From an uncultured Clostridia bacterium (lineage in GTDB: Bacteria; Bacillota; Clostridia; TANB77; CAG-508): a stretch of DNA of 44,847 nt. Positions within the stretch are counted from its first letter, which is position 1. Every line of letters begins with the position of its first letter. A program made the position numbers and the translations under genes. The notes beneath the pieces are model-generated. The model had not been told where the DNA came from, ran no database searches, and saw nothing but the letters and a program-made list of their open reading frames with translations. The stretch is from positions 66,488-111,334 of the forward strand of contig CALXAP010000003.1 of the NCBI GenBank assembly GCA_944386325.1, read 5' to 3'. Of this stretch, positions 1,944-42,808 are shown in pieces.

Positions 1944-3773
1944 ATGTATATTAATAATGCTAAAATCGTGATGCATCCTGTATTCGGTGAAATACGGATA
2001 GGGGAAAAATTTGAAAAAGTTTTGAGTTTACCAGTATTTGTGAGACTGTCTCATAAGAGTCAGTTAGGAACTAAGGCATTGTCTGGAATAATAAATGCAA
2101 AACATACAAGGCTTATGCATTCAATTGGTGTAATGTATTTAGTAGATTTTGCTTTAAAGTGTATCAAAGAAAATGTAAAGGAGTTTTTTCCATTAAATGA
2201 AAGAGAAATAGAAGTATTAAAATTGGCAGCATTAGGTCATGATTTAGGTCATTTGGCATTCTCACATTCTATGGAGAATATAGAAACTAAATCACATGAA
2301 GAGCGGACTATTGAATGTTTTCTGATTAATGCAAACGAAATAAATCAAATTTTTGGATATGACATTACATCATCAGTATTAAGATTTTATGAAAATAAAG
2401 TTCAGGAAAATACTATTGATGAAGTTGATATTCAAAAAATTTTAAGTTTTAGAAATTTGCTAATAGGTGATTTAGATTGTGACAGAATGGAGTACATGTC
2501 AACAGATAACTTTTTGGTAAATGGCAAAAAAACAGATTTTGTAAAGATATTAAAGCATTTAAGTATATCTTCAAAAAATGAAAAAATAACATTGGTGTAT
2601 GACCAAAAGGTCTTACCTATAATAGTTAACATGTTGTATGATCGATATGTTTTATATGATAATATGTATTATAGTGCTGGCTTAAAATTATCAGAGATGA
2701 TAGTTAGAAAATATATTGAACTAGAAAAAATTCCAGAAAATCAAATTGAGCTAATGCAAGAATATGATTTATTGTGCAAATTAGACTCATATCTAGATTC
2801 TTATTGTTTACCTAGATATAAAAGAGTTGCTGAAGCATTATTACAGGGAAAAATTGAAGATTGCTTAATTATTAGAATAAAAGATAATGAACAATTTCGA
2901 TTTTTCTTAAGAAGATTAGAAGATATACTGGGAAATTCAAAAGAAATTTTTATGAATATTGATAGAAAAAAATTATGTATATGTAGTAAGGAAAATGAAA
3001 TATATATAAGAGATGAAAATGGGGTTATAAAAAATATAAAACATTTTAAAGAAGCAATGTTCATTACAAATCAACCAGTAATTAATTATAACTATGTTAT
3101 GATTGATTTAAAAAATAGTCCAGATTTAAATGAAAAACAAAAAATAAAAATACGAGAACTTTTTAATGAAGCACATGTAAAAATAAAGAAAAGATTTAAA
3201 TGTGTTTCTAATAATAGAACATTAAATGATTTTTCACATATTTTAGAAATGTATAATTCTAAGAATAAACAGTATAATAAAGAAGAAATTGAATACTATT
3301 ATAAAATAGAAAATTCAATAGATAAAGTTATTTTAAAATATGTAAAATCAAAAAATGGAGAAGATTGTGCAATTATTCAGATATTTCAAAATGATGGTTT
3401 TGATTTTATAAAATATTATGAAAGTAAATTTTACAATTGCAAAACCAAAAAAGAAATATTAGAGTATGCAAACACAATTTTAAAGTATAAAGGATTAGAA
3501 TTGATAGAAGAAAACAAGTTATTAGATGAAGATGTTATTGTTTATAAAATAACATCAAGTGTTATATTGGAGGATAAAGAAAACAATTATGTAATTAAGC
3601 TAAGTTGTATTAATTCTAATTCTATAAATGAAAAAATGAGAATAAAAAATGTTGTATTAGAAGCAGAATTGATAAAAGGAAATGAAATAGCATTAGCTTA
3701 TTTGCAAAAAGACTTAGAAAAATTTGGCTATTATGAAGTTAAGAAAAGTTTATACGAGTGGTTGGGAATATAA
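1944..3773 (+). CDS. HD-domain phosphohydrolase, dGTPase/SAMHD1-like
   Basis: A 609-aa soluble protein. The N-terminal third has the metal-binding HD signature of the dNTP triphosphohydrolase/SAMHD1 superfamily: KHTRLMHSIG (residues 53-62), then LGHDLGHLAFSH (residues 97-108), and downstream GDLDCDRMEYMSTDNF, corresponding to the usual D-x-D-R-x-x-Y element. The remaining ~350 residues are Lys/Glu/Ile-rich and not recognised. The start is ATG 1944, 7 nt after AGGAGG at 1931-1936; the open frame extends upstream to 1881 without a ribosome site. Family members hydrolyse nucleotides or dNTPs. The substrate here cannot be read from sequence, and a defence-type nucleotide depletion role is possible but unproven. 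It is a single-gene unit. Confidence 0.8.
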   Translation: MYINNAKIVMHPVFGEIRIGEKFEKVLSLPVFVRLSHKSQLGTKALSGIINAKHTRLMHSIGVMYLVDFALKCIKENVKEFFPLNEREIEVLKLAALGHDLGHLAFSHSMENIETKSHEERTIECFLINANEINQIFGYDITSSVLRFYENKVQENTIDEVDIQKILSFRNLLIGDLDCDRMEYMSTDNFLVNGKKTDFVKILKHLSISSKNEKITLVYDQKVLPIIVNMLYDRYVLYDNMYYSAGLKLSEMIVRKYIELEKIPENQIELMQEYDLLCKLDSYLDSYCLPRYKRVAEALLQGKIEDCLIIRIKDNEQFRFFLRRLEDILGNSKEIFMNIDRKKLCICSKENEIYIRDENGVIKNIKHFKEAMFITNQPVINYNYVMIDLKNSPDLNEKQKIKIRELFNEAHVKIKKRFKCVSNNRTLNDFSHILEMYNSKNKQYNKEEIEYYYKIENSIDKVILKYVKSKNGEDCAIIQIFQNDGFDFIKYYESKFYNCKTKKEILEYANTILKYKGLELIEENKLLDEDVIVYKITSSVILEDKENNYVIKLSCINSNSINEKMRIKNVVLEAELIKGNEIALAYLQKDLEKFGYYEVKKSLYEWLGI

Positions 3774-21870: not shown

Positions 21871-24225
21871 TTGTTAGAAAAACTAGGAAAAGAAGAATTA
21901 ATAGAAAGATTAAAAGAATTAGAAAAAGAAAATAAAGAACTAAAAGAAAAATTGTATGGAAATTTAGACAGAAAAGTAGAAGAAAAAGAAATAAGTAAAG
22001 AAACAAAAGCTATTTCAACTGAAGAAAAAATAAAAATATTTATGGAAATATTTAAAGGGAGGACAGATATTTATTCGAAAAGGTGGACAAGTAGTACAAC
22101 AGGAAAATCAGGGTATTCACCAGTATGTATAAATGAATTTAATACATATAAATGTGATAAACCAAGAGTTAAATGCAATAATTGTAGTTTTAGAGAGTTA
22201 CAACCTTTAACAGAAAATGTTATATTAAAACATTTACAAGGAAAAATAACAATCGGAATTTACCCATTATTACCGGGAGATTTATGTAATTTTTTAGCAA
22301 TAGATTTTGATAAAAAGACTTATGAGAAAGATGTATTAGCATTTTGGAATATATGTGATGAACTAAATATACCAATATATGTTGAAAAATCGCGATCTGG
22401 AAATGGAGCGCATGTATGGATATTTTTTGAAGAAAGCATGCCAGCAAATATTGCTAGAAAAATGGGAAATATTCTTTTAACAAAAACGATGGAGAAAGAA
22501 TCATTGGATTTGGACTCATATGATAGGTTATTTCCAAACCAGGATACAATGCCTAAGGGTGGATTTGGCAATCTAATAGCCTTACCTTTTCAGGGGGAAA
22601 GTAGTAAGAGTGGAAATACAGTTTTTGTAAATAAATATTTTGAGCCAGAAAAAAATCAATTTGAAATTTTGGAAAATATAAAAAGAATTAAAAGTGATGA
22701 TGTTTATAATTTTGTTAATAAATATAGGGAAGATGATTATAAAGAGCCTGATGTGGATCAGATAGAAGATAATGAATTGCCTAAAAAAGAAAATTTAAGA
22801 GAAGTTAAATTGGTAAATAATGTAGAATGTATATTTGATAATATGATTTATGTTAAAAAATTAAAATTGTTACCAAATGAAGTATCTTATTTAAAAAGAT
22901 TAGCTAGTTTTACTAATCCAGAATTTTATGAAAAACAAAAATTAAGACTACCTATATATAAAACACCAAGGATCATAAGTTGTTTTGAGGAAGATGATAG
23001 ATTTCTAAAATTACCTAGAGGATGTATAGATAAAATTAAAGAAGTATGTGAAAAAAGTAAGGTTAAATTAATTATAAAAGATACAAGAGAGAAAGGAATT
23101 AATACAGATTATACATTTATAGGAAAACTAAATAAAAAGCAAGAAAATGTAAAGAATGAGTTATTAAAATATGAAACAGGAATATTATGTGCTACTACAG
23201 GTTTTGGAAAAACTGTTATAGGAGCTAAAATTATTTCGGAGTTAAAAACAAATACTTTGATTATAGTAAATAGAAATAATTTATTAGAACAATGGAAAGA
23301 AAGGTTATCCTATTTCTTAAATATAAATAAAAAAGAAATAGGACAAATTGGAGCGAGTAAAGAAAATTTAAATGGTGAATTAGATGTAGCTAGTTTTCAA
23401 TCGTTAGCTAAGAAAAACAATTTAGATGAGATAGTTAAGGATTATGGGCTTGTTATAATAGATGAATGTCATCATGTTGCAGCATTTAGTTTTGAAAAAG
23501 TATTGAAAGCTATAAGAAGTAAATATGTATATGGATTAACAGCAACACCTACAAGAAAAGACGGATGGCATAAAATTATTTATATGCAATGTGGGGATAT
23601 AAGAGTTAGAGTAGCAAATCGAGAATTAAAACAAAATAAAGAAATGGAACATGTAGTAATTGTAAAGAGTACAGGTTATAAATATATTTCTGCTGAAGAA
23701 AAAGACAAAATACAAATTTCAGAAATCCTAAATGACATGTGTCATAATATATTTAGGAACAATATGATAGTTCAAGACATAAAGAGATGTGTTTTAGATG
23801 GTAGAATTCCTATTGTTTTAACAGAAAGGGTAGAACATTTAAAAATATTAAAAGAAGAATTAGATAGTATAAATGTTCCAGTTGTTATATATAAAGGAGC
23901 AATGGGAAAGAAAAAAACAAAAGAAATTCGAGACACTATTGATGAAGCTGATAGAAATAATGAATCAAGAATAATTTTGGCGACAAGTAGTTCTATAGGA
24001 GAAGGTTTTGATGATAGTAGATTAGATACACTATTTTTGACTATGCCAGTTTCATGGAAAGGAAGAATCTTGCAATATGTAGGAAGACTTCACCGAGAAC
24101 ATGAAGATAAAGGTAAAGTAATTGTTTATGATTATTTAGATAATATGAAAGTCTTAGAAAAAATGTATTTTAGAAGAATAAAAGGATATAAGATTGCTGG
24201 ATATGAAATTATAGAAGAATTATAA
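21871..24225 (+). CDS. TOTE-type archaeo-eukaryotic primase fused to SF2 helicase
   Basis: A 784-aa fusion. Residues 1-45 are a coiled coil. A Cys cluster (Cys86, 95, 102, 105) precedes an archaeo-eukaryotic primase (AEP) domain with the catalytic DxD in LAIDFD (Asp145/147), SGNGAHVW (His181) and RLFPNQD, then NLIALPFQ. A superfamily 2 helicase follows: Walker A CATTGFGKT (Lys447), DECHH (531-535), GLTATPTRKDG, and GEGFDDSRLD plus QYVGRLHRE near the end. This AEP type is the one described from TOTE conflict systems. TTG 21871 follows AAAGGAGGG. No nuclease partner is adjacent, so it may act alone in DNA repair or defence. It lies just outside the mobile element. Confidence 0.85.
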   Translation: MLEKLGKEELIERLKELEKENKELKEKLYGNLDRKVEEKEISKETKAISTEEKIKIFMEIFKGRTDIYSKRWTSSTTGKSGYSPVCINEFNTYKCDKPRVKCNNCSFRELQPLTENVILKHLQGKITIGIYPLLPGDLCNFLAIDFDKKTYEKDVLAFWNICDELNIPIYVEKSRSGNGAHVWIFFEESMPANIARKMGNILLTKTMEKESLDLDSYDRLFPNQDTMPKGGFGNLIALPFQGESSKSGNTVFVNKYFEPEKNQFEILENIKRIKSDDVYNFVNKYREDDYKEPDVDQIEDNELPKKENLREVKLVNNVECIFDNMIYVKKLKLLPNEVSYLKRLASFTNPEFYEKQKLRLPIYKTPRIISCFEEDDRFLKLPRGCIDKIKEVCEKSKVKLIIKDTREKGINTDYTFIGKLNKKQENVKNELLKYETGILCATTGFGKTVIGAKIISELKTNTLIIVNRNNLLEQWKERLSYFLNINKKEIGQIGASKENLNGELDVASFQSLAKKNNLDEIVKDYGLVIIDECHHVAAFSFEKVLKAIRSKYVYGLTATPTRKDGWHKIIYMQCGDIRVRVANRELKQNKEMEHVVIVKSTGYKYISAEEKDKIQISEILNDMCHNIFRNNMIVQDIKRCVLDGRIPIVLTERVEHLKILKEELDSINVPVVIYKGAMGKKKTKEIRDTIDEADRNNESRIILATSSSIGEGFDDSRLDTLFLTMPVSWKGRILQYVGRLHREHEDKGKVIVYDYLDNMKVLEKMYFRRIKGYKIAGYEIIEEL

Positions 24226-24806: not shown

Positions 24807-25997
24807 CTAGTTTTTTTGTAGTAACAAGTTTTGTAATACATTTCCTGCATTTCTATTATGAGAAATAATAGGGTGTACATAGAAATTAAATGTTGTTGTA
24901 ATTTGTGCATGACCTAATCTTGCTGCTACTACTGCTACATCAATATTTTGTGATATTAAAAGTGTAGCATTTGTGTGTCTTAATCCGTGAAAGTTAATTA
25001 CAGGTAGTCCTATTTGTGCTACATATTTTACAAACCATTTGCTAATTGTAGAAGGGTGCATAGGTTTGCCATCAGCTTGTACAAATAACCTATTAGAATT
25101 CATCCATAATTCGCCATATAACGATTTTTGTTCATCATACCATAACTTATATTCTTCAAGCAAAGAAACGACGAAATCAGGAATTGCTACTTCTCTGATA
25201 GAACTTTCTGTTTTAGGTGTCTTAGTAAATACTCCTTTGTCTGCCAAATATTGACTAGAACGATTTATACTTACTATGCCAGTTTTAAAATCTACATCTT
25301 GCCATTCTAATCCCATAAGTTCACCAAGTCTTACACCAGTAAATATTGTTAAGATGATTGCAACTTTGTATTTAATTTGATCTTCACCAAGTTCTGTTAG
25401 ATTTTCTAGTAATACTTTACATTGTTCATCATCGTAATATCTTCTTTTAGGTTTCATTGCTTTTGGTGGTTGAACTCTTTCTGCTGGATTAGATACAAGT
25501 AATTGCCAATATATAGCTTTGTGTAGCATTGCACGAAGTAGTCTGTGATGTTCTAATATTGTCTTACCAGATAAAGGTTTTAAAGTTTTCTTACCATTGT
25601 TACTTTTCTTTCTAACTAATTGTGTATCTCTACTTAATAAATCATAAAATTGCATAATATCTGTAGGTTTTATTTTATTAATATAGAAATGTCCAAAGTA
25701 GGGAAGAATTCTTGTTTCTAACATTCTGCAATATCTTTTATATGTTGAAGGTGCAAGTTCTTTTGAACCATAATCTCTTTTCCATATTTCTGTAAATTCA
25801 GAAAATTTAAGAGATTTTCCTTCAATTACAAGACCATTTTGAACATCAGCTACAAATTTAGCAAGTTCTATTTGAGCATCTTTTTTAGTTCCGTGTATTG
25901 TTTTTGTATGCTTAATTAGCTTCCCATTTAGGTCATAACCATTTGTACATACTAACCTGTAACTATCTTTTCCTCTTTTTTCAATACTCCCAGCCAT
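24807..25997 (-). CDS. int: Tyrosine site-specific integrase
   Basis: A 396-aa integrase of the Tn916/phage type: an N-terminal arm-binding domain (IEKRGKDSYRLVCTNGYD, KKDAQIELAKFV), a core-binding SAM-like domain (about 65-165), and a catalytic domain with Arg in TGVRLGELMGLEW, HGLRHTNATLL (His-x-x-Arg), RLGHAQITTTFNFY (His and the Tyr nucleophile in FNFYVHP). Start ATG 25997 follows AAAGGAGGTG by 9 nt; an upstream GTG overlaps that site. It lies 267 nt from attL, as expected for an integrase acting at a tRNA 3' end. Confidence 0.93.
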   Translation of the reverse strand: MAGSIEKRGKDSYRLVCTNGYDLNGKLIKHTKTIHGTKKDAQIELAKFVADVQNGLVIEGKSLKFSEFTEIWKRDYGSKELAPSTYKRYCRMLETRILPYFGHFYINKIKPTDIMQFYDLLSRDTQLVRKKSNNGKKTLKPLSGKTILEHHRLLRAMLHKAIYWQLLVSNPAERVQPPKAMKPKRRYYDDEQCKVLLENLTELGEDQIKYKVAIILTIFTGVRLGELMGLEWQDVDFKTGIVSINRSSQYLADKGVFTKTPKTESSIREVAIPDFVVSLLEEYKLWYDEQKSLYGELWMNSNRLFVQADGKPMHPSTISKWFVKYVAQIGLPVINFHGLRHTNATLLISQNIDVAVVAARLGHAQITTTFNFYVHPIISHNRNAGNVLQNLLLQKN

Positions 25998-26053
25998 TAC
26001 CTTTTTCACCTCCTTTCAGGCATACCTATGGGTGGGAGAGGATGTATATATAT

Positions 26054-26238: not shown

Positions 26239-27543
26239 ATGTTTACAAGTATATATTTAGATAATTTTTTGGGAATATCAGCACCCATAGAGTTAGATTT
26301 TATTTCTAGAAGTAGAAATAAAGAAGAAAATTCATCAGTAGCAAAAATTGAAGATGGAATATATATAAACAAAATTATAGGAATAATCGGCGGAAATGCA
26401 AGTGGAAAGACAAGTATTTTAACAGCAATTAATTTAATTGGAAATATTTTAACTACTCCAATTTGCCAGTTTGATACTGAGGATAAGTTTAAATACATTC
26501 AAGAATTAATAGATAAAGATCCTAGTCCTGAAAATCGAAAGTTAATGTATGATTTTTTTAATGATGTTAATTCTTCTATAGATATTTCTTTCCAAAATCA
26601 AAGAAGAAAAAATGAAAATACGGTTTTTAAAGTTGAAATGTATATAATAGATAAAAAAGAAGAACTAAGCGGATATTATACATATAATTTAGAATTAAAT
26701 GGAATAAAGAAAAGAATAGAAAAAGAATATTTAGGATATAGAAAAAAATATAAAGATAAAGTAGAAACAATAATTGATATTAATGATGCTAAAGAAGGAC
26801 AAGTGTATTATATAAATAGATATTTTAAAAATATAGCAGATATAGATAATACAAAAAAAGAGGAACTTGAAAGAAAATACAAATTTACTAAAACATTTGT
26901 AACACATTATATTGAAAATTCTGCTAATATATCTACATCTGAAGAACATAATCCTGAAAAATTAAAGTTTATAGATTGGTATAAAAAATCACCAGACACA
27001 GTAAGAACATTAGTTAGAGTTGTTGATCCTAAGATTAAAGATGTAATGATTGATACAGATAATAAATATGAAGAATTGTTATTTATACTTAAAGATGGAA
27101 GTAAAATTACAAGAAACATGTTATCAACTGGTACAGAAAGGTTTTTAAATACAATAAGAAATGTTAATAAAATCATAGATAAAAATGGAATTTTGATAGT
27201 TGATGAAATAGAACAAAATTTACATAAGGATTTAGTAGGGTTAATAATTAGATTATTTGGTGAAATGTCAAAAAACAATTCGCAAATTATTTTTACAACT
27301 TTAAGTCCAGAGATTTTTGATATTTCAAATAAATACAACAAAAAAATATTTAAACAGGATTCAATATTTATTTTAAATAGTGATTATGATGACATTAAAA
27401 TTGATAAATTGATAGATTTAAAAATAGATGGAGAAAGAGTTAAGGGAGATGCTTCTGTAGCTAATTTATATAAAAGCAGAAAGATATCTGTACATCCAAA
27501 TACTGAACAAATAAAAATTTTCTTAGAAAACTTTAATAATTGA
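26239..27543 (+). CDS. Orphan ABC-type AAA ATPase (AAA15/AbiLi-like)
   Basis: A 434-aa ATPase. Walker A is GGNASGKT (51-58) after IIGI; a signature-like motif MLSTGTERFLN sits about 295-305, Walker B is GILIVDEIEQNLH (about residues 313-325) and the switch segment is IIFTTLSPEIFD. This is the SMC/Rad50/OLD-type head with a reduced coiled-coil middle. There is no C-terminal TOPRIM domain and no RloB/DUF4435-type nuclease partner next door, unlike most defence ATPases of this group. The AbiL-like class is plausible. Its own promoter, and the separate leader of the next operon, suggest it acts alone or with a distant partner. Confidence 0.75.
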   Translation: MFTSIYLDNFLGISAPIELDFISRSRNKEENSSVAKIEDGIYINKIIGIIGGNASGKTSILTAINLIGNILTTPICQFDTEDKFKYIQELIDKDPSPENRKLMYDFFNDVNSSIDISFQNQRRKNENTVFKVEMYIIDKKEELSGYYTYNLELNGIKKRIEKEYLGYRKKYKDKVETIIDINDAKEGQVYYINRYFKNIADIDNTKKEELERKYKFTKTFVTHYIENSANISTSEEHNPEKLKFIDWYKKSPDTVRTLVRVVDPKIKDVMIDTDNKYEELLFILKDGSKITRNMLSTGTERFLNTIRNVNKIIDKNGILIVDEIEQNLHKDLVGLIIRLFGEMSKNNSQIIFTTLSPEIFDISNKYNKKIFKQDSIFILNSDYDDIKIDKLIDLKIDGERVKGDASVANLYKSRKISVHPNTEQIKIFLENFNN

Positions 27544-27594
27544 CTTTTATAAACAAGTCGTTAAAGAAGTTTAAATAAAATAAAAAATAAAAAA

Positions 27595-27713
27595 AGAACC
27601 AAGCGAATGTTGGTCCAATATAAATGTATATATTAATCTCCCCAGATCATACATACATTTATATTATAATACAATTTGTTGTATTTGTAAATACGAAACA
27701 TTTGTCTGGTTCT
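27595..27713 (+). ncRNA. Candidate structured leader RNA (three-way junction)
   Basis: An outer 17-bp helix pairs 27595-27611 with 27697-27713 (one mismatch, two G-U). Inside are a perfect 13-bp helix 27617-27629/27653-27665 with a 23-nt loop containing CTCCCCAG, and a 7-bp hairpin 27668-27674/27679-27685 with a TTTG loop. The junction TGGTCC (27611-27616) can pair with GGACCA (27722-27727) next to a strong ribosome site. It does not match any riboswitch I recognise. It lies upstream of the MBL operon. Confidence 0.55.
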
Positions 27714-27729
27714 GGAAAGGAGGACCAAA

Positions 27730-27765
27730 ATGTTTTGTTATATTATAATGAAACAACTAGAATAA
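27730..27765 (+). CDS. Leader peptide MFCYIIMKQLE
   Basis: An 11-codon frame with a near-perfect ribosome site AAAGGAGG (27716-27723) 6 nt upstream. Its stop codon lies 1 nt before the 5' arm of a terminator hairpin, so a ribosome paused at the end of the peptide would block the hairpin from forming. This is the arrangement of leader-peptide attenuators. No run of one amino acid is present, so starvation for a particular residue is less likely than general ribosome stalling. Confidence 0.55.
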   Translation: MFCYIIMKQLE

Positions 27766-27766
27766 G

Positions 27767-27800
27767 ATGGTCTTAAGAAATTAAGACTATTTTTTATTTT
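27767..27800 (+). terminator. Attenuator terminator before MBL operon
   Basis: ATGGTCTTAA / TTAAGACTAT, 10 bp with GAAA tetraloop, then TTTTTATTTT. It sits between the leader peptide and the MBL ribosome site. GACCA at 27723-27727 could compete with TGGTC (27768-27772) of its 5' arm. Confidence 0.8.
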
Positions 27801-27813
27801 AGGAGGAAAAAAG

Positions 27814-28692
27814 ATGAAAGTAAAAGTATTAAGTTCACAACAATGTGAAGATAAAAATGCAAATAATGGAGATTGCTTTATTCTCGATGACGGAAGAGAA
27901 TTAGTGTTATATGATTGCGGATGTGAAGATTATGCAAATTATGTAATGAATTATATGAAAGAAAAAGGATATGAAAAGGTAAAAATAGTGTTGTCGCACA
28001 ATGATGATGATCATTTTAAGGGAATACCTGTATTAATAGAAAAAGAAAAAGTATCAGAAATTACAACAGTATTGTTATTAAAATATGTAGATGAACTTCT
28101 TGAAAAAATAGATGATAAAAGAAAAAACAGAGAATCTATAAAAAGACAGATAACTGATATGTATGACAATATAAAACAACTAAGTGGAAATAATCTACAT
28201 GATGCATTTGTTCATAAAAATATTACGGACGAAATAGAAATATCTGGACCAGGAAAAGATTACATACTAGATGCAGCAGCAAAAGGACTAGATACTACAG
28301 AAGGAGATACAATAGACGGAGAAACTATAACAAATGCTACAAGTATACATGCAAAAGTTAAATTGGGTAATAAATATATATTATTAACAGGAGACTCTAG
28401 TTTTGAATCCATTATGAAAGAAAATTTAGATGACTTTGAAATTATTCAATTATCTCATCACGGAAAAAAAGAAATTGCCGAAAAGATATTTGAAGAGCTA
28501 GAGGATAAACCTGATGAAACATATATTATTTCAGATAATACAGGAAATTCAAATGGGGGTTCAGATAAATTAGATACAAAAGGCTATAAAGTTATGAATA
28601 CTAAAGATGATGGTATGCTTTCTTTAGATAATAATAGCAGAAGTCTTAATAGCAGTAGTAAAGGAACATTAAATGACATATTTGATTTGTAA
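27814..28692 (+). CDS. MBL-fold hydrolase (ComEC/Rec2-like) of a three-gene cassette
   Basis: A 292-aa metallo-beta-lactamase-fold protein. Metal ligands are visible: HxDxDH as SHNDDDHFKG (His62, Asp64, Asp66, His67), TGDSS (Asp194) and LSHHGKK (His215/216). The opening NNGDCFIL is typical of the ComEC-type MBL group. No signal or membrane segment, so it is cytoplasmic. Such MBL proteins hydrolyse nucleic acids or nucleotides and occur in several conflict systems. AGGAGG at 27801-27806 sets the ATG. Its 3' end overlaps the next gene by 20 nt, so the two are translationally coupled. Confidence 0.8.
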   Translation: MKVKVLSSQQCEDKNANNGDCFILDDGRELVLYDCGCEDYANYVMNYMKEKGYEKVKIVLSHNDDDHFKGIPVLIEKEKVSEITTVLLLKYVDELLEKIDDKRKNRESIKRQITDMYDNIKQLSGNNLHDAFVHKNITDEIEISGPGKDYILDAAAKGLDTTEGDTIDGETITNATSIHAKVKLGNKYILLTGDSSFESIMKENLDDFEIIQLSHHGKKEIAEKIFEELEDKPDETYIISDNTGNSNGGSDKLDTKGYKVMNTKDDGMLSLDNNSRSLNSSSKGTLNDIFDL

Positions 28693-29140
28693 AAATAATA
28701 TTACAGAACAAGAAATTGATAGTAGACGAAAGTATATATATGATGTTTTCCATATATACACTTTCGTAGATACTAAAAATTCAGATGAGAATGTAATAGT
28801 ATTAAAAAGCATGCCATATACAGACATAGATTTATTTTTAATAATAGGACATAATAATACTACAAATAAGTTTTTAGAGATGCACTATAAAGAAATAAAA
28901 GAAAAGAACGTTTTAATTATTTCATGCTATACAAAACATTTTTCAAGTATTAAACTATTAAAAGATAAAAGGATCTATACACCGATCGATGGAGAAGAAA
29001 CAAAAACATATTACGGAGAAGAGTATGGATTTGATTTTGAAATTACATTTGAAGAAATACGCTTATATAGAAATAGAAAATTAGATTTAGAAGAACTACT
29101 AAACAAAATATTTAGGAGAAATCAAGTATGGAAAAATTAA
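28673..29140 (+). CDS. Small putative caspase/CHAT-like protein
   Basis: A 155-aa protein. Two hydrophobic strands end in a His and a Cys: DIDLFLIIGHNNTT (His60) and KNVLIISCYTKHF (Cys85). In clan CD peptidases (caspase, CHAT) the catalytic His and Cys lie at the ends of adjacent strands, in contexts like 'GHG' and 'SACxT'; the match here is by pattern only, and the His-Cys distance is short. If right, it would be a minimal protease effector. It overlaps the MBL gene upstream by 20 nt and the membrane-protein gene downstream by 13 nt. Ribosome site AAAGGAAC. Alternatives: an inactive Rossmann-type binder. Confidence 0.5.
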   Translation: MTYLICKNNITEQEIDSRRKYIYDVFHIYTFVDTKNSDENVIVLKSMPYTDIDLFLIIGHNNTTNKFLEMHYKEIKEKNVLIISCYTKHFSSIKLLKDKRIYTPIDGEETKTYYGEEYGFDFEITFEEIRLYRNRKLDLEELLNKIFRRNQVWKN

Positions 29141-29613
29141 TTGAAAAAATTGATGAATATAATATATTTAATTTTATTTTACCTGGATTAATCTTTACGT
29201 ATTTACTTAAATACTATGTCGGAATAGATATATTTCAAGAAAATTTAATTGAAATGATATTTATATACTATTTTACAGGTTCAATAATTAGTAGAATAGG
29301 ATCAATTATTATAGAAAAAATTCTAATCAAATGTAAATTTATTAAATATGCTCCTTATGAAGATTATATTAAAGCAAATGAAAAAGATAAAAAGATAAGT
29401 CAATTGCTAACTGTTAATAATATGTATAGAACTATTTGTTCAGGTTTTATATTATTAATTATACTAAGAATAATAAAAGAGCTATTTAACAAATGGAATT
29501 TATCAATGGGTATATTAAATACAATTTTGATGATTACAATAATGCTGTTATATTTGTTTTCTTATAGAAAACAAACGAAATATATAGAAAAAAGAATTGA
29601 AATTAACAAGTAA
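29128..29613 (+). CDS. Small four-pass membrane protein of the MBL cassette
   Basis: A 161-aa protein with hydrophobic segments at about 14-32, 38-60, 100-116 and 129-146, a cytoplasmic-looking charged loop between segments 2 and 3, and a Lys/Arg-rich tail. The N-terminal YNIFNFILPGLIFTYLL matches a pattern I have seen in small membrane proteins of defence loci, but I cannot name the family. ATG 29128 overlaps the preceding gene by 13 nt, with AGGAGA upstream. As the third coupled gene it would be the membrane effector or anchor. Confidence 0.65.
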   Translation: MEKLIEKIDEYNIFNFILPGLIFTYLLKYYVGIDIFQENLIEMIFIYYFTGSIISRIGSIIIEKILIKCKFIKYAPYEDYIKANEKDKKISQLLTVNNMYRTICSGFILLIILRIIKELFNKWNLSMGILNTILMITIMLLYLFSYRKQTKYIEKRIEINK

Positions 29614-36273: not shown

Positions 36274-36302
36274 AGAATTTTTACAATCAAATGGAGGAAC
36301 AA

Positions 36303-37253
36303 ATGGATAATATAAAACCATTCGTAAAATGGGCAGGAGGTAAGGGAAGCTTAATTCCACAACTTAAAAATTTCTACCCATTCGAATTAAATAATGCAAG
36401 TATAAATAAATATGTTGAACCATTTGTTGGTGGAGGAGCAGTTTTAATAAATATATTACAAAAATATGATATTAAAGAAGCTTATGCTTTTGATATAAAT
36501 ATAGATTTAATAAATTGTTATAATGTTATAAAAAAAGATGTAAAGAGTCTTATTAAAGAATTAGATAAAAAAGAAAAAGATTTTATAAAGCTGAAAGATA
36601 AAAAAAGAGAAGAACTTTTTTATAATATTAGAAATGAATATAATTCTTATAAAATAAATGAAAATGAAATAAATGTAAAAAGAGCGTCAGAATTTATATT
36701 TTTAAATAGAACTTGCTTTAATGGACTATATAGAGTAAATAAAAGTGGAAAATTTAATGTACCTTGTGGTAAATATAAAAATCCAACAATTTGCGATGCA
36801 AGCAATTTAATAAATTTGTCTTATTTAATTAGAAATGTAAATTTTCAATGTGGAGATTATAAGGAAAGTGAGAAGTATATAGATAATAATACTTTTGTAT
36901 ACTTTGATCCACCATATAGACCATTATCAAGCACGTCAGGATTTACATCATATACTAAAGAAGATTTTAATGATGACAATCAAAAAGAGTTGGCTAATTA
37001 TTTTAAATTATTAGACGAAAAAGGTGCAAAATTAATGCTATCTAATTCAAATCCGAAAAATACAAACGAAGATGATAATTTCTTTGAAGAAATATATAAA
37101 GGATTTAATATAAATAAGATTTCGGCAAAAAGGATGATAAATGCAAATGCGAAAGGAAGAGGAAAAATCTCAGAATTACTTATTACAAATTACAAGGAGA
37201 TGAATAAATGTATCCAGGAAAGTTCTATTTTGAAGAAAGTACCTTTAAGCTAA
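36303..37253 (+). CDS. dpnM: DpnM-like Dam family DNA adenine methyltransferase (GATC)
   Basis: A 316-aa class alpha m6A methyltransferase. The SAM site is KWAGGKGSLIPQL near the start with FVGGGAV following; the catalytic motif is VYFDPPYRP and RTCFNGLYRVNKSGKFNVP is the conserved target-recognition segment of the Dam/DpnM group. It methylates adenine in GATC in double-stranded DNA and so protects against the DpnII nuclease encoded two genes later. ATG 36303 is 5 nt after GGAGG, which itself overlaps an earlier in-frame ATG (36291). It overlaps the second methyltransferase by 46 nt. Confidence 0.92.
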   Translation: MDNIKPFVKWAGGKGSLIPQLKNFYPFELNNASINKYVEPFVGGGAVLINILQKYDIKEAYAFDINIDLINCYNVIKKDVKSLIKELDKKEKDFIKLKDKKREELFYNIRNEYNSYKINENEINVKRASEFIFLNRTCFNGLYRVNKSGKFNVPCGKYKNPTICDASNLINLSYLIRNVNFQCGDYKESEKYIDNNTFVYFDPPYRPLSSTSGFTSYTKEDFNDDNQKELANYFKLLDEKGAKLMLSNSNPKNTNEDDNFFEEIYKGFNINKISAKRMINANAKGRGKISELLITNYKEMNKCIQESSILKKVPLS

Positions 37254-37987
37254 TTAATAATGATACATTTGATACTTTGAAGCAATTCGATGAAAAAAGT
37301 TTTGATATGATATTTGCAGATCCACCATACTTTTTATCAAATAATGGAATAACTTGTAGTAGTGGAAGGATGGTAAGTGTTAACAAAGGAAATTGGGATA
37401 AAGCATTAAGTGTAAATGATAAATATGAATTTAATAGAAAATGGATTCATGAATGCTATAGAATTTTAAAAGATGAAGGAACTATATGGATAAGTGGTAC
37501 ATTGCATAATATATATTCTATAGGGATGGCATTAGAGGAAGAAGGATTTAAAATATTAAATAATATTACATGGCAAAAGACTAATCCACCACCGAATTTG
37601 GCATGTAAAACTTTTACACATTCAACAGAGACTATATTATGGGCAAAGAAAGATTTAAAAAAGGTTAAATATACATTTAACTATTCTTTGATGAAAGAAC
37701 TTAACAATAACAAACAAATGAAAGATGTATGGACAACATCACTTACAAAACCATCTGAAAAAAAGAACGGAAGACATCCAACACAAAAACCATTAGAAAT
37801 ACTAGAAAGAATAATTTTAGCATCTACAAATGAAAATGATTTAATCTTAGATCCTTTTTGTGGAAGTAGTACAACTGGAATAGCTGCAGCAAAGTTAAAA
37901 AGAAATTATATAGGAATAGATAATGAGAAAGAATATTTAGATTTATCCATTAGAAGATACAAAGAAATAAAGGAGGACAAGCTATGA
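37208..37987 (+). CDS. dpnA: DpnA-like second DNA adenine methyltransferase
   Basis: A 259-aa class beta m6A methyltransferase: catalytic FADPPYFLSNNG near residue 40 and SAM motif ILDPFCGSSTTGIAA near the C-terminus, with HPTQKPLEILERI before it, the order opposite to DpnM. In the DpnII system DpnA methylates GATC also on single-stranded DNA, which protects incoming DNA during transfer. That fits well on a mobilizable element transferred as a single strand (inference). Coupled to dpnM by a 46-nt overlap; its end overlaps the nuclease start by 4 nt. Confidence 0.92.
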   Translation: MYPGKFYFEESTFKLINNDTFDTLKQFDEKSFDMIFADPPYFLSNNGITCSSGRMVSVNKGNWDKALSVNDKYEFNRKWIHECYRILKDEGTIWISGTLHNIYSIGMALEEEGFKILNNITWQKTNPPPNLACKTFTHSTETILWAKKDLKKVKYTFNYSLMKELNNNKQMKDVWTTSLTKPSEKKNGRHPTQKPLEILERIILASTNENDLILDPFCGSSTTGIAAAKLKRNYIGIDNEKEYLDLSIRRYKEIKEDKL

Positions 37988-38847
37988 AAAGAAATTTTGC
38001 AGAATGGCTATTAACTTTTACAGATAGTATAGCAAACTATAGATATTACATAGACTTTGAAACGATATATAAAAACGCAGAAATATATAAAGTAGAACTA
38101 AATATGATGAACTCACTAATAGGTAGTAAAAATATAGAAAGGGATTTTGAATATTTAACAAATAAATATCCAGAGGTAATAAAATGTATTCCGACTTTAT
38201 TAGCAGTTAGACAATCTGAAATTATTATTCTAGATGATGAAGGAAATAAGTTTGAATACAATTTTAGAAAAATGAATTATAGTGTTGAACAATATAAAGT
38301 GTTTATGAGAGAAACAGGACTATTTGACTTATTAGAGAATCACTTAGTAAATAATTTGTATGACTATGTTTTGGGAGTGGAATGTGGATTAAATTCAAAT
38401 GCTAGAAAAAATCGTGGTGGGCATTTGATGGAAGATTTAGTAGAAAAATTTATTCAAAAAGCAGGTTTCAAAAAAGGTGAAACATATTTTAAAGAAATGT
38501 ACTTACAGGAAATAGAAAATAAATGGAAGTTAGACATGTCATTCATAAGTAATCAAAATCAAGCTACAAAAAGATTTGATTTTGTAGTAAAAACAGATAA
38601 TTGCATTTATGGCATAGAAACCAATTTCTATGCTTCAGGTGGTTCTAAATTAAATGAAACAGCAAGAAGTTATAAAATGATAGCAGAAGAAGCAAAGAAA
38701 GTAGTAGGATTTGACTTCGTTTGGTTTACTGATGGAATGGGATGGATATCAGCAAGAAATAACCTTAAAGAGACTTTTGATAGCATGGGTCATATCTATA
38801 ATATATCAGATATGAAAAATGGAATTATGCAAGAAATCTTTAAATAA
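37984..38847 (+). CDS. dpnB: DpnII/MboI-type restriction endonuclease (GATC)
   Basis: A 287-aa type II restriction enzyme. The MboI/DpnII family is recognised from MKRNFAEWLLTFTDSIANY, NARKNRGGHLMEDLVEKFIQ, and the catalytic region KRFDFVVKTDNCIYGIETNF (PD-(D/E)xK type: Asp and Glu-x-x) with SGGSKLNETARSYK and WFTDGMGWISARNNL. It cuts unmethylated GATC. The start ATGA overlaps the second methyltransferase stop. Gene order methylase-methylase-nuclease matches the DpnII operon, ensuring protection before cutting. Confidence 0.93.
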   Translation: MKRNFAEWLLTFTDSIANYRYYIDFETIYKNAEIYKVELNMMNSLIGSKNIERDFEYLTNKYPEVIKCIPTLLAVRQSEIIILDDEGNKFEYNFRKMNYSVEQYKVFMRETGLFDLLENHLVNNLYDYVLGVECGLNSNARKNRGGHLMEDLVEKFIQKAGFKKGETYFKEMYLQEIENKWKLDMSFISNQNQATKRFDFVVKTDNCIYGIETNFYASGGSKLNETARSYKMIAEEAKKVVGFDFVWFTDGMGWISARNNLKETFDSMGHIYNISDMKNGIMQEIFK

Positions 38848-38912: not shown

Positions 38913-39012
38913 TGATAATAAAACACAAAATTCGACAATATTTTCAAAAACAAATGATATAATAAAATAATATGAAGATATAAGAAAAGTAAAAAAGAAA
39001 GTGAGAATAATA

Positions 39013-41073
39013 ATGTACATTAAAGAGCTAAAAATATGCAATTATAAGAATTTTTATAGGGAAAAAATTGAAATTACACCTAATATTAATACTATTATAG
39101 GAGAAAATGGAACAGGTAAAACAAATTTATTTTATGCTTTAAGAATTTTATTAGATGGTAATTATAGAGCTTATTTCAACGAAGATAGTTTTTCTTATGA
39201 ATTGAATGCAATAAAAGGAAATTGGATTATTATATCATGCGTGTTTAAAGAAATTGAAGAAGACTTCAATACCTTGGTATTAAACCCAGATGAAAACAGA
39301 AATGCAGTATATTCATTTATTTTTAGACCAAAAAAAGAAATAAGAATGAAATTATTTGAGTATTCAGAAAAAATAAAAGAAACAACAGGAGAAGAAAAAG
39401 AAGAAATAGTTTGTGAATTGAAAAGCTATATTGAAAAAATAGATATAAAGAATGATTATGAAATGATAAGAACTGTTGATACTATTTTTAATTTTCTAGA
39501 TGAAAATGAATATAAAGCTATTGTTGGAGATTTTAAAAATTTAGTATTTCCTGATTCGGATATACAAGATGATAAAAAAAATATAGGAAATAGAGTAAAT
39601 GATGTAAATGATATTATTAATGTTACCTATATTCCAGCAATAAGAGATGTAAATAATGAATTAACTCATGACAATAACTTCTTTATTAAGATGGTTAAGG
39701 AAATATCGAAAGATATAAAAGAAGAAAAATGGAGTGAAATATTTGAAAAGTTCAATGATATCAATGATGAATTAAATAATATAGATGAGTTTAATAATTT
39801 TATAAAAGAAATCGAAAATGTTATAAATGATACAGTTGGTGATGTGTACAATTCTAATGTATCGTTTGACATTAATATGCCAATTAATACTGATAATATA
39901 ATAAAATATTTTAGTTTAAAAGGTAAGAATGAAGAAAAAAGTTTTAACCTTAGTAATAATAGTTTGGGTGAGAATAATGTTGTTTATTTAGCTTTGAAAT
40001 TAAAAGAAAGCCAAATGGAGAGAGGACATACAAAAAAATTTTTAAATATAATATTAATAGAAGAACCAGAAGCGCATTTACATAAGCATCTACAACAAAG
40101 TCTTTTTGAAGGAATAAAAAATAATAAAAATTATCAAATCTTCTTATCAACACATTCTGTTCATATATCTGAAAGTGCAGATATAAAAAGTACGATTGTT
40201 TTGGGAAAGAAAGATAAATATACAGAAATATATATTCCAAGTAGAGGATTACAAGAAGAAGAAATAAAGAAAATAACGAGATTTCTAGATGTAACAAGAT
40301 TACCTATATTATTTGCAAAAAATGTAATATTGGTTGAGGGAGATGCAGAATTAATCTTAATTCCAGTGATGTTAAAAATTAAATATGGAATAGATATAAA
40401 TAAATATGGTATTAGTATAATTTCTATGGATAGTTGTTTTTTTGATTTGATAGCAGTATTATTTGATGATCTTAGAATAAAGAAAAAATGTGCTATTTTA
40501 ACTGATTTGGATAAAGATTATACAAAAGAAGGAAAATATAAGAGAAGAGAAAGATTATCATTTGTTCGAGTAAAAAGAATGGAAAAAAAATTCAATGATA
40601 ACAGATGGGTAAAAGTTTATTCTAATGATTATACATTTGAAATAGAATTTTATAGAGAAAATATAGATATTTTAAAAACATTATTAGATAGAAAAAAATA
40701 TTTTAAGACTATTGATAAAATGAATAATGAATTGAATAGTCAACAAGAATCAATACAATATAATAGGATAATTAAGATCTGTGATAAAGCTGGAAAAGGA
40801 TGGTTAGCAATGGATTTGGCAGAGTATATACAAAAAGAAAAAGTAGAAGTTAAAATTCCAGATTATATAATTGATGCAATTATTTTTATTTTTTCTGATT
40901 CAAATTATGATAATTGTATACAAAGACTATTAAAGATTTATTCATCCAACAATGACATTAATTTTGACGATTTAATTAGTAAAAAGATAGTAATTAATGA
41001 TAAATTTATAAATTTTCTGATTGATAGATATGAGGAGATAAGAAAAAATGATATTACAGAAGTTATCAAATGA
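39013..41073 (+). CDS. gajA: Gabija protein GajA (ATPase-TOPRIM OLD-family nuclease)
   Basis: A 686-aa protein. The N-terminal ABC ATPase has Walker A GENGTGKT (30-37), signature-like LSNNSLGENN (313-322), Walker B ILIEEPEAHLHKH (about 347-359) and LSTHSVH. The C-terminal TOPRIM nuclease has ILVEGDAELILIP (Glu442) and LTDLDKD (Asp498/500). This is the GajA architecture; paired with a UvrD-like helicase it forms the Gabija anti-phage system, in which GajA nicks DNA when nucleotides are depleted and GajB supplies helicase activity. ATG 39013 is preceded by AAAGTGAG; GTG 39001 is in frame but less likely. TATAAT at 38958-38963 is probably the -10. Confidence 0.92.
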   Translation: MYIKELKICNYKNFYREKIEITPNINTIIGENGTGKTNLFYALRILLDGNYRAYFNEDSFSYELNAIKGNWIIISCVFKEIEEDFNTLVLNPDENRNAVYSFIFRPKKEIRMKLFEYSEKIKETTGEEKEEIVCELKSYIEKIDIKNDYEMIRTVDTIFNFLDENEYKAIVGDFKNLVFPDSDIQDDKKNIGNRVNDVNDIINVTYIPAIRDVNNELTHDNNFFIKMVKEISKDIKEEKWSEIFEKFNDINDELNNIDEFNNFIKEIENVINDTVGDVYNSNVSFDINMPINTDNIIKYFSLKGKNEEKSFNLSNNSLGENNVVYLALKLKESQMERGHTKKFLNIILIEEPEAHLHKHLQQSLFEGIKNNKNYQIFLSTHSVHISESADIKSTIVLGKKDKYTEIYIPSRGLQEEEIKKITRFLDVTRLPILFAKNVILVEGDAELILIPVMLKIKYGIDINKYGISIISMDSCFFDLIAVLFDDLRIKKKCAILTDLDKDYTKEGKYKRRERLSFVRVKRMEKKFNDNRWVKVYSNDYTFEIEFYRENIDILKTLLDRKKYFKTIDKMNNELNSQQESIQYNRIIKICDKAGKGWLAMDLAEYIQKEKVEVKIPDYIIDAIIFIFSDSNYDNCIQRLLKIYSSNNDINFDDLISKKIVINDKFINFLIDRYEEIRKNDITEVIK

Positions 41074-42808
41074 ACAAAAAGAAGCAGTATTTGATGGAAA
41101 TAATATTTTATTAACAGCTATTCCAGGCAGTGGGAAAACAAGAACTTTAACAAACAAAGTATTAAAAGAATTACAAGAAGAAAAAGATGGTATGGTAATA
41201 GCTATAACATATACTAGAAGAGCTGCAAATGAAATTAAAGAAAGAATATATGAAATTTTAGGAGAAATTCCTAAAAAAGCATGGATTGGAACAATACATT
41301 CATTTTGTCTAGAATTTGTTATTAGAAAATATGGTAGTTTTTCTGAGACAATTTCAAAACCATTCAAAATAATAGGTGATGATGATAGAAATAAGCTATT
41401 GAAAAATTTGAAAGATAAGTATAATATAAATGAATATGCAAAAATAGATATGACATTAGATATTAATGGCAAACCTAATAACTATGCATATTATAATTTT
41501 ATAGAAGAATACTATGAACATTTATTACAAAATAAGATGGTAGATTTTAATTATATATTATATGAAACTTACTCAATGTTGATAAAATCAAAGAGAATAA
41601 GAAATAATTTAAGTAATATAATAAGAGTTATTTGTATAGATGAATATCAAGATACACAAGAATTACAATATCAAATATTAGGTTTATTAACAAATAACGA
41701 AACAGATAAAAACATTTTTGTGGTAGGAGATGTGAATCAAGCAATTTATTCGGGCATAGGGGGAGTGATTAAAAATAAAGAGGAATTAGAGAAAATATTT
41801 GGAAGAACATTTATTGAAAGAAACCTAACAGGATGCTATAGGTCAAATCAAGAAATAATAGATCTATATAAGAATTTTTGTTGTGAAGAACATATAATGT
41901 TATCAATGGATAAAAAACATAATAACCCAATTATTCGTATTAACCACAATATTACTAAAGATAATTTGATAACAGAAATTGCAAATATAATATCTGATTT
42001 AATAGAAAATTATGAAATACCACCAGAAGAAATTTGTATTATAGCTCCTCAATGGTATATGCTATTTGATTTTTCAAACAAAATAAGAGAATTATTACCA
42101 AATGTTCCTTTTGATGCACCAGGAATAATTCCGTTGAAAAAAGATGAAGAAAGTATTATTTATAAGATTAGTGAAATTTTATTAACTAATTTTTCATTTA
42201 ATAATAGATATTATTTAGAGAGATTAGCTGGTGAAATAATAAAGCAATTTGAAGAAGAATATTCAATTGCTCTTAAAATGACTTCAAAAGAGTTTTTGAA
42301 TCTTTGCTATATAGCAAAGAAAAGTGATAAAACTATTGCAACAGAATATTTAAAAGATAGTTTACATGCAGTATTTGAAAGATTAAGTATAGAAGATATC
42401 TTTAAGGAAGATATATATAATTTTATTCAAGGGACAATTGATAGGATAAAAAAATATGAAAAAAATGGTATGGAAGATGATAGGCTGTTTTTTGAAAAAT
42501 CACTTAGGAGTAAAAAAGGAATTGTTGTATCTACAGCACATGGAGTAAAAGGAGAAGAATATAGAGTAATTATTGCTTTTGCTCTTTTATATGGGTATAT
42601 ACCACATTGGGATACTATCATTAATAATAGTGAGGAAGCAGAAAAAGAAGCTAAAAAATTACTATATGTAATATGTTCTAGAGCAAAAGAAAAATTATAT
42701 TTATTTGCTGAAAGTGGTAGGAAAAATGGAAGAGGAAATGAATATACTATTACCCCTGAACTTTTAAAACTAATTAAGGATGAGCAAGATATAAAAAACA
42801 ATTATTAA
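41048..42808 (+). CDS. gajB: Gabija protein GajB (UvrD/Rep-like SF1 helicase)
   Basis: A 586-aa superfamily 1A helicase: Q-motif-like LSNEQKEAVFD, Walker A AIPGSGKT (24-31), motif Ia TYTRRAANEIKER, motif II CIDEYQDTQELQ (Asp198/Glu199), motif III VGDVNQAIYSG, motif IV GCYRSNQEI, motif V VVSTAHGVKGEEYRVI and motif VI YVICSRAKEKLYL. Length and pairing identify GajB. It overlaps gajA by 26 nt, so the two proteins are made in a fixed ratio, matching the known GajA-GajB complex. Ribosome site AGGAGATAAG. Confidence 0.93.
   Translation: MILQKLSNEQKEAVFDGNNILLTAIPGSGKTRTLTNKVLKELQEEKDGMVIAITYTRRAANEIKERIYEILGEIPKKAWIGTIHSFCLEFVIRKYGSFSETISKPFKIIGDDDRNKLLKNLKDKYNINEYAKIDMTLDINGKPNNYAYYNFIEEYYEHLLQNKMVDFNYILYETYSMLIKSKRIRNNLSNIIRVICIDEYQDTQELQYQILGLLTNNETDKNIFVVGDVNQAIYSGIGGVIKNKEELEKIFGRTFIERNLTGCYRSNQEIIDLYKNFCCEEHIMLSMDKKHNNPIIRINHNITKDNLITEIANIISDLIENYEIPPEEICIIAPQWYMLFDFSNKIRELLPNVPFDAPGIIPLKKDEESIIYKISEILLTNFSFNNRYYLERLAGEIIKQFEEEYSIALKMTSKEFLNLCYIAKKSDKTIATEYLKDSLHAVFERLSIEDIFKEDIYNFIQGTIDRIKKYEKNGMEDDRLFFEKSLRSKKGIVVSTAHGVKGEEYRVIIAFALLYGYIPHWDTIINNSEEAEKEAKKLLYVICSRAKEKLYLFAESGRKNGRGNEYTITPELLKLIKDEQDIKNNY

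Follow-up and report, generated by a model that had tools for sequence, protein, structure and literature searches.

A conserved leader RNA before unrelated defence genes in Clostridia, best read as an antisense-controlled attenuator

Results

Genomic setting of the leader

A conserved, covarying RNA leader containing a short leader ORF and a terminator was found at 27540-27800, between an AAA ATPase gene and a three-gene MBL operon, both predicted to be anti-phage (Table 1). The leader is real, and is best read as antisense-controlled attenuation placed before defence genes and common to several systems. The probability that the stretch is an antisense-RNA-controlled transcription attenuator was put at about 0.68. 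Coordinates refer to the window, the whole stretch of DNA analysed (44,847 nucleotides), which is part of a 1.69-Mb genome; its relatives in the collections are metagenome-assembled genomes of Clostridia.

By gene content, the downstream operon appears to fit the PADLOC candidate system PDC-M48, comprising the M48A membrane protein and the MBL-like protein M48B. Elsewhere, the window carries an archaeo-eukaryotic primase with helicase of the TOTE conflict-system type (21871-24225; PF22548, 1e-94), a type II restriction-modification set of two methyltransferases and a restriction enzyme (36291-38847), and a complete Gabija pair (39001-42808; GajA 2e-173, GajB 1e-179).

Table 1. Window coordinates of the switch elements and of the adjoining genes
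Feature	Position	Strand	Evidence
Integrase, just upstream	24807-26009	-	
AAA ATPase, AbiL/AriA-like, upstream gene	26239-27543	+	PF13304 7.6e-11; PADLOC AbiLi 6e-36
5' hairpin of sense RNA, UGACU...AGUCG, starting at the AAA gene stop codon	27540-27560	+	98.6% of cells paired; two-sided changes in 2 pairs
Predicted antisense RNA, ~68 nt, two hairpins (H1' and terminator)	27589-27656	-	Start inferred from promoter spacing
Predicted intrinsic terminator of the antisense RNA, GGACCAACATTCGCTTGGTTC + T7; arms A and B as a minus-strand hairpin	27589-27616	-	
Arm A, 5' strand of outer helix P1	27596-27609	+	Coevolves with arm C
H1 stem-loop of the sense RNA; first hairpin of the predicted antisense RNA	27617-27665		Two-sided changes in 7 of 14 pairs
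Putative antisense promoter TTTACA-17-TATAAT, sigma-70-type (-35, 27691-27686; -10, 27668-27663)	27663-27691	-	11 of 12 consensus positions
Arm C, 3' strand of P1; pairs alternatively with D	27697-27713	+	Coevolution tests
Arm D, holds the leader Shine-Dalgarno; pairs with C or E	27719-27727	+	C:D and D:E permutation tests
Leader ORF MFCYIIMKQLE	27730-27765	+	Sequence
Intrinsic terminator, arms E (27766-27777) and F (27781-27795)	27766-27795	+	Folding; E:F coevolution
MBL-fold hydrolase, PDC-M48B-like, predicted first controlled gene	27814-28692	+	PF00753 9.8e-11; PADLOC PDC-M48B 1.7e-15
155-aa ORF of the operon	28673-29140	+	Kept in the L110 and L002 operons
Membrane protein PDC-M48A	29128-29613	+	PADLOC 9.9e-55

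Structure and covariation of the sense leader

The leader stretch folded at -58.6 kcal/mol, compared with -35.8 +/- 4.0 kcal/mol in shuffles (z -5.7). The sequence-only reading of this DNA had proposed a 17-bp outer helix enclosing a 13-bp helix and a small hairpin, with the stop codon of a leader peptide 1 nt before a terminator. All of these were present: the outer helix as arms A and C, the 13-bp helix as the arms of H1 (27617-27629 with 27653-27665), the small hairpin at about 27670-27688, and the leader stop in its place beside arm E. The covariation in homologues that such a structure implies was also found. Fifteen distinct sequences were aligned by fitting to the structure, giving 91.4% of cells paired and two-sided changes in 11 pairs, with slid controls at most 47% paired; an independent MAFFT alignment gave the same changes in H1. 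H1 had no strand preference (7 G.U versus 5 A.C), and the 5' hairpin was biased to the plus strand (9 G.U, 0 A.C). When the leader was compared with Rfam covariance models, no match reached the gathering threshold, the best permissive match having an E of 0.54.

A sense promoter at the conserved TTGACT was considered and rejected: its second hexamer, TAAAGA, is too poor, and in locus L078 TTGACT is altered while the hairpin stays paired.

Minus-strand promoter and predicted antisense RNA

A consensus scan for promoters and terminators returned both on the minus strand. Consensus promoter matches are many in this A+T-rich DNA (33 found in 3.7 kb, against 33.7 expected). The minus-strand candidate keeps its position and a 17-nt spacer in 15/15 members, so far as consensus matching can tell. 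Among 11 diverged members the promoter hexamers were 98-100% conserved, the spacer 74% and the whole leader 78%, and the spacer was never gapped. The most conserved sequence of the family is ATTATA and TGTAAA at a fixed 17-nt gap, which is the antisense promoter. A minus-strand hairpin followed by a T-run was present in all distinct members except L056, which has lost the antisense terminator hairpin, and the predicted antisense RNA covers the 5' part of the leader. Since the minus strand has both a promoter and an intrinsic terminator, the leader most likely also encodes this antisense RNA of ~68 nt.

The A:B hairpin (P0) had first been read as a sense structure. In 12 members it comprised 93 pairs on the minus strand, only 76 of which also pair on the plus strand, G.U pairs there becoming A.C; conversely, 62 of 63 plus-strand pairs also form on the minus strand. 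As a local sense alternative to A:C, the hairpin was rejected, because it did not coevolve on the plus strand (5662/20000 permutations) and is explained as the minus terminator. The opposite strand biases assign the 5' hairpin to the sense RNA and, on this comparison of sequences, A:B to the minus strand as the predicted antisense terminator.

These data bear on whether the A:C helix, H1 and H2 form the aptamer of a small-molecule or protein-binding switch. In favour of such a switch, the junction is closed, has several helices and contains conserved nucleotides. Those between H1 and the 3' side, however, are the -10 and -35 of the minus promoter; H2 is also the weakest paired of the helices (83.8%), and the apical loops vary. 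The three-way-junction aptamer was rejected as a candidate, most of its conserved block being antisense promoter, and we regard a ligand-binding switch in general as very unlikely.

Alternative pairings and predicted decision

Arms A, C, D, E and F were matched with the arms of their own RNA or of other members, and the pairing energies compared by permutation. Arms A and C coevolved: own pairs had a mean of -13.5 kcal/mol against -8.3 for others (0/20000 permutations; partner shuffles 0-9/1000). In the first group of members, the own C:D pairing was the lowest of the permutations (155/20000, which is about the minimum for n=5), D:E gave 327/20000, and E:F was at or near the lowest of all. Three alternative sense pairings (A:C, C:D and D:E) and the terminator (E:F) thus co-vary. 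By the same test, coevolution was absent for A:B over all members and for B:D, and a B:D pseudoknot was rejected as not conserved. The sequence-only reading had two pairings at the leader ribosome site. That of GACCA with the 5' arm of the terminator is kept by compensation in most first-group members. That of TGGTCC with GGACCA is real in the window but not conserved, own pairs being no better than shuffled partners (8351/20000). The reading had missed the pairing of the 3' arm of P1 with the leader ribosome site (C:D), as well as the 5' hairpin at 27540-27560 and the minus-strand promoter and terminator.

The window RNA was folded to the end of E, the antisense-bound state being imposed by blocking the covered region. 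In the free RNA, A:C had a probability of 0.92 and D:E of 0.73; with the antisense region blocked, C:D rose to 0.77 and D:E fell to 0.00. L044 and L003 folded like the window and L045 similarly (0.73 and 0.63), so that antiterminator and terminator are mutually exclusive in these four. L056 responded weakly. In L001 this exclusion is absent: D:E does not pair, and C:D was formed in both folding states. In the full-length RNA the terminator was stable in both states; the choice must therefore be kinetic, made during transcription. The folding model predicts the logic published for the plasmids pT181 and pIP501: read-through if nothing holds the 5' part, termination if antisense RNA does.

Members of the second group lack the sense terminator, and their fold predictions gave no clear change at the ribosome site. 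This group retains the antisense promoter and terminator, as would be expected if the antisense RNA acted mainly through RNase III decay of the duplex or on translation of the first ORF, in the manner of type I toxin-antitoxin systems, and not through termination; the missing D:E pairing in L001 points the same way. Such action would leave unexplained the coevolving antiterminator-terminator network of the first group. By their sequence, the first ORFs encode either leader peptides of 9-11 aa or a 42-aa protein that is basic, not the small, mostly hydrophobic toxins of type I systems. We hold this mode of action to be unlikely.

Leader ORF

ORFs of 9-11 aa equivalent to that of the window are present in L001, L003, L044, L045 and L056. 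The peptides MFCYIIMKQLE, MFRRYKEQIE, MFFKTKIEKLE, MKYRIQKNE and MKNKVQKNE have only their length and a final Glu-stop in common, and the comparison gave no sign of a stalling motif. The sequence-only reading had taken translation of this leader, and stalling on it, as the main sensor of a ribosome-sensing switch. Much of that switch stands: before the predicted defence MBL operon there is a conserved attenuator in which helices compete, and it includes a leader ORF and a terminator. The leader as main sensor is not supported: the peptides are unconserved, and the most conserved sequence is the antisense promoter instead.

Stated as an alternative, leader translation or stalling would choose between D:E and E:F, and the antisense RNA would have no role. 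It would fit the position of the ribosome site within D and of the stop beside E in the window, the similar ORFs of all first-group members, and the coevolution of D:E and C:D. It leaves unexplained why the minus promoter is conserved and why P0 is biased to the minus strand, and in the second group there is a 42-aa ORF with no terminator in the same place. We consider it rather improbable, if the strongest of the alternatives to antisense-controlled attenuation. Leader translation may still modulate the switch, since the ribosome site lies inside arm D.

Family members and their neighbours

The same leader is present in two MBL relatives, L001 and L003, and absent from the others; its occurrence goes with the upstream AAA gene. 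In L044 the AAA gene is 45% identical to that of the window, the leader is nearly identical, and CBASS genes lie downstream (NucC 4e-70, CD-NTase 7.5e-53). Near-identity extends from about 27593 to 27806 in the window (from 2220 in L044), with divergence on both sides. A near-identical leader between AAA genes of 45% identity and unrelated downstream genes suggests that the leader may have been exchanged as a cassette, and that defence modules are exchanged at it. The leader might alternatively be mobile-element sequence, passively inherited and without regulatory role, as this near-identity of the RNA between unlike flanking genes would allow. Diverged members, however, have compensatory changes in several helices and an invariant promoter spacing, which makes passive inheritance extremely improbable.

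Further members were found with covariance models. L045 and L056 have the AAA gene, the leader and a 4TM CBASS effector, with the CD-NTase confirmed in L045. The leader follows IetS in L064-L067 and L091, and in L101 an IetS-like gene identified by similarity to L064. Thoeris ThsA and ThsB lie downstream in L098 and L099, with RmrA upstream in L099. L078 has a clear TTGACA-17-TATAAT sense promoter upstream and Cas6b and Cas8b of CRISPR type I-B downstream. The neighbours of the family are thus PDC-M48 (window), CBASS, Thoeris, CRISPR type I-B and IetAS genes, that is, defence and not replication.

All members found belong to a single order of Clostridia. A class-wide search of 265 genomes, with strict first-look filters, returned no member outside the order, and phage and plasmid records gave no match to the leader. 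Two specific patterns were without match in IMG/VR; a 17-base pattern matched six contigs there.

In the second group a 42-aa basic ORF (phrog_5079) replaces the leader ORF. The ORF of this protein, RTSK...SVAASALRNRAKK, comes first after the leader in L064 (1378-1506), L078 (1372-1500) and L099 (1671-1799). The leader ORF of the first group may be a shortened version of it, because MKNKVQKNE of L056 resembles the start of the L078 ORF, MKNKIRTSKE. A broader family (SVASKASKLLKDGRTSK) occurs elsewhere in the order, where no such leader was seen; loci L113-L116, with the 42-aa ORF family elsewhere, yielded no clean comparison of leaders.

Other arrangements were noted by eye. In L002, L006 and L052-L055, a different leader comes after the relative of the AAA gene. 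On its minus strand it has TTGCAA-17-TATAAT (with TTGTAA in L053) and a terminator, and it precedes a DUF2188 ORF; the same MBL operon comes next in L002 and L006. By eye, this would be a second antisense-type leader. In L051, the stretch at about 2861-3060, behind a relative of the AAA gene, has a sense promoter and an A-like arm, together with TTTACT-17-TACAAT, which is promoter-like on the minus strand, and a minus terminator; the start of a short ORF, MTIFYVNKTKK, lies inside a hairpin ending in a T-run. By eye, the leaders of L051 to L055, L002 and L006 seem to share the layout of the family: a minus promoter and a minus terminator, then an ORF that is either short or of the DUF2188 kind.

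Two more distant MBL relatives, one labelled Ruminococcus, have a CIRCE-like operator before the MBL gene (L008:4944-4970, TTAGCACTC-N9-AAGTGCTAA; L009:2167-2193, TTAGCAGTC-N9-GAGTGCTAA); only 2 of the 116 loci have one. It resembles the heat-shock site of HrcA, and the same MBL effector may be stress-controlled by a protein at these loci.

Discussion

In the mechanism proposed for the window, sense RNA would enter from the AAA gene and the minus promoter would make a short antisense RNA ending at arm A. When the antisense RNA is absent, A:C would form, D would be free to pair with E, the terminator would be blocked and the defence operon transcribed. When it is held on A, B and H1, C:D would form and hide the leader ribosome site, E:F would form, and transcription would stop before the MBL gene. 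Loss of the antisense RNA, for example when a phage shuts down host transcription, would then turn the operon on. A ribosome on D would block D:E, so the leader ORF probably provides a second input.

The repC attenuator of pT181, controlled by RNAI, likewise has a leader with mutually exclusive antiterminator and terminator and an antisense RNA complementary to its 5' part, being on by default and off with antisense RNA (PMC4878617). It controls plasmid replication, whereas the switch described here fronts defence operons, has one extra pairing step (A:C frees D for D:E) and contains a leader ORF; the likeness is one of logic. Premature termination induced by antisense RNA in a Gram-positive leader is also known from the repR attenuator of pIP501 with RNAIII (PMC4981023). 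There, a 136-nt antisense RNA and the repressor CopR control replication; here the predicted RNA is ~68 nt and no repressor gene was identified.

For antisense control of defence, the nearest precedents are Rna0 of EcoRI and the antisense RNAs of Eco29kI, where a reverse promoter and antisense RNA restrain a restriction operon (PMC3874152). In those systems the promoters are located within the restriction gene and work through convergence or through duplex formation, with no leader attenuator, and they are not common to unrelated systems. An abortive-infection gene of Clostridia is also under RNA control in the case of abiF RNA (RCd22), but that RNA is not antisense and binds protein, as in type III toxin-antitoxin systems (PMC12373285). 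The attenuators of msrD (PMC10314930) and of tylosin resistance (PMC6851288) resemble the present leader in having a leader ORF and regulated transcription before a protective gene; they are reported to depend on drug-induced ribosome stalling in the leader, whereas the switch here lacks a conserved leader peptide. In the open-access literature searched, no report was found of one such leader common to unrelated defence systems, an absence that is not proof of novelty.

Silencing of self-harming bacterial defence genes is known for a few protein repressors. That the same switch recurs beside several unrelated immune systems points to a common means of holding dangerous defence genes silent until need arises, as judged from gene neighbourhoods. 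More tentatively, and with considerable doubt, we propose an exchangeable antisense safety catch for CBASS, Thoeris, CRISPR-Cas I-B, PDC-M48 and IetAS neighbours, in which a short-lived antisense RNA would report on host transcription and its loss during phage takeover would release the effectors. If so, detection of infection would take place at the level of RNA and would not depend on the sensor that each system has of its own, and a direct prediction would be that loss of host transcription releases defence. New defence loci could also be sought by way of an antisense promoter and minus terminator before a short ORF. If this proposal is true, one family of RNAs that carries its own antisense promoter and recurs next to five unrelated defence systems would amount to a general, protein-free layer of control.
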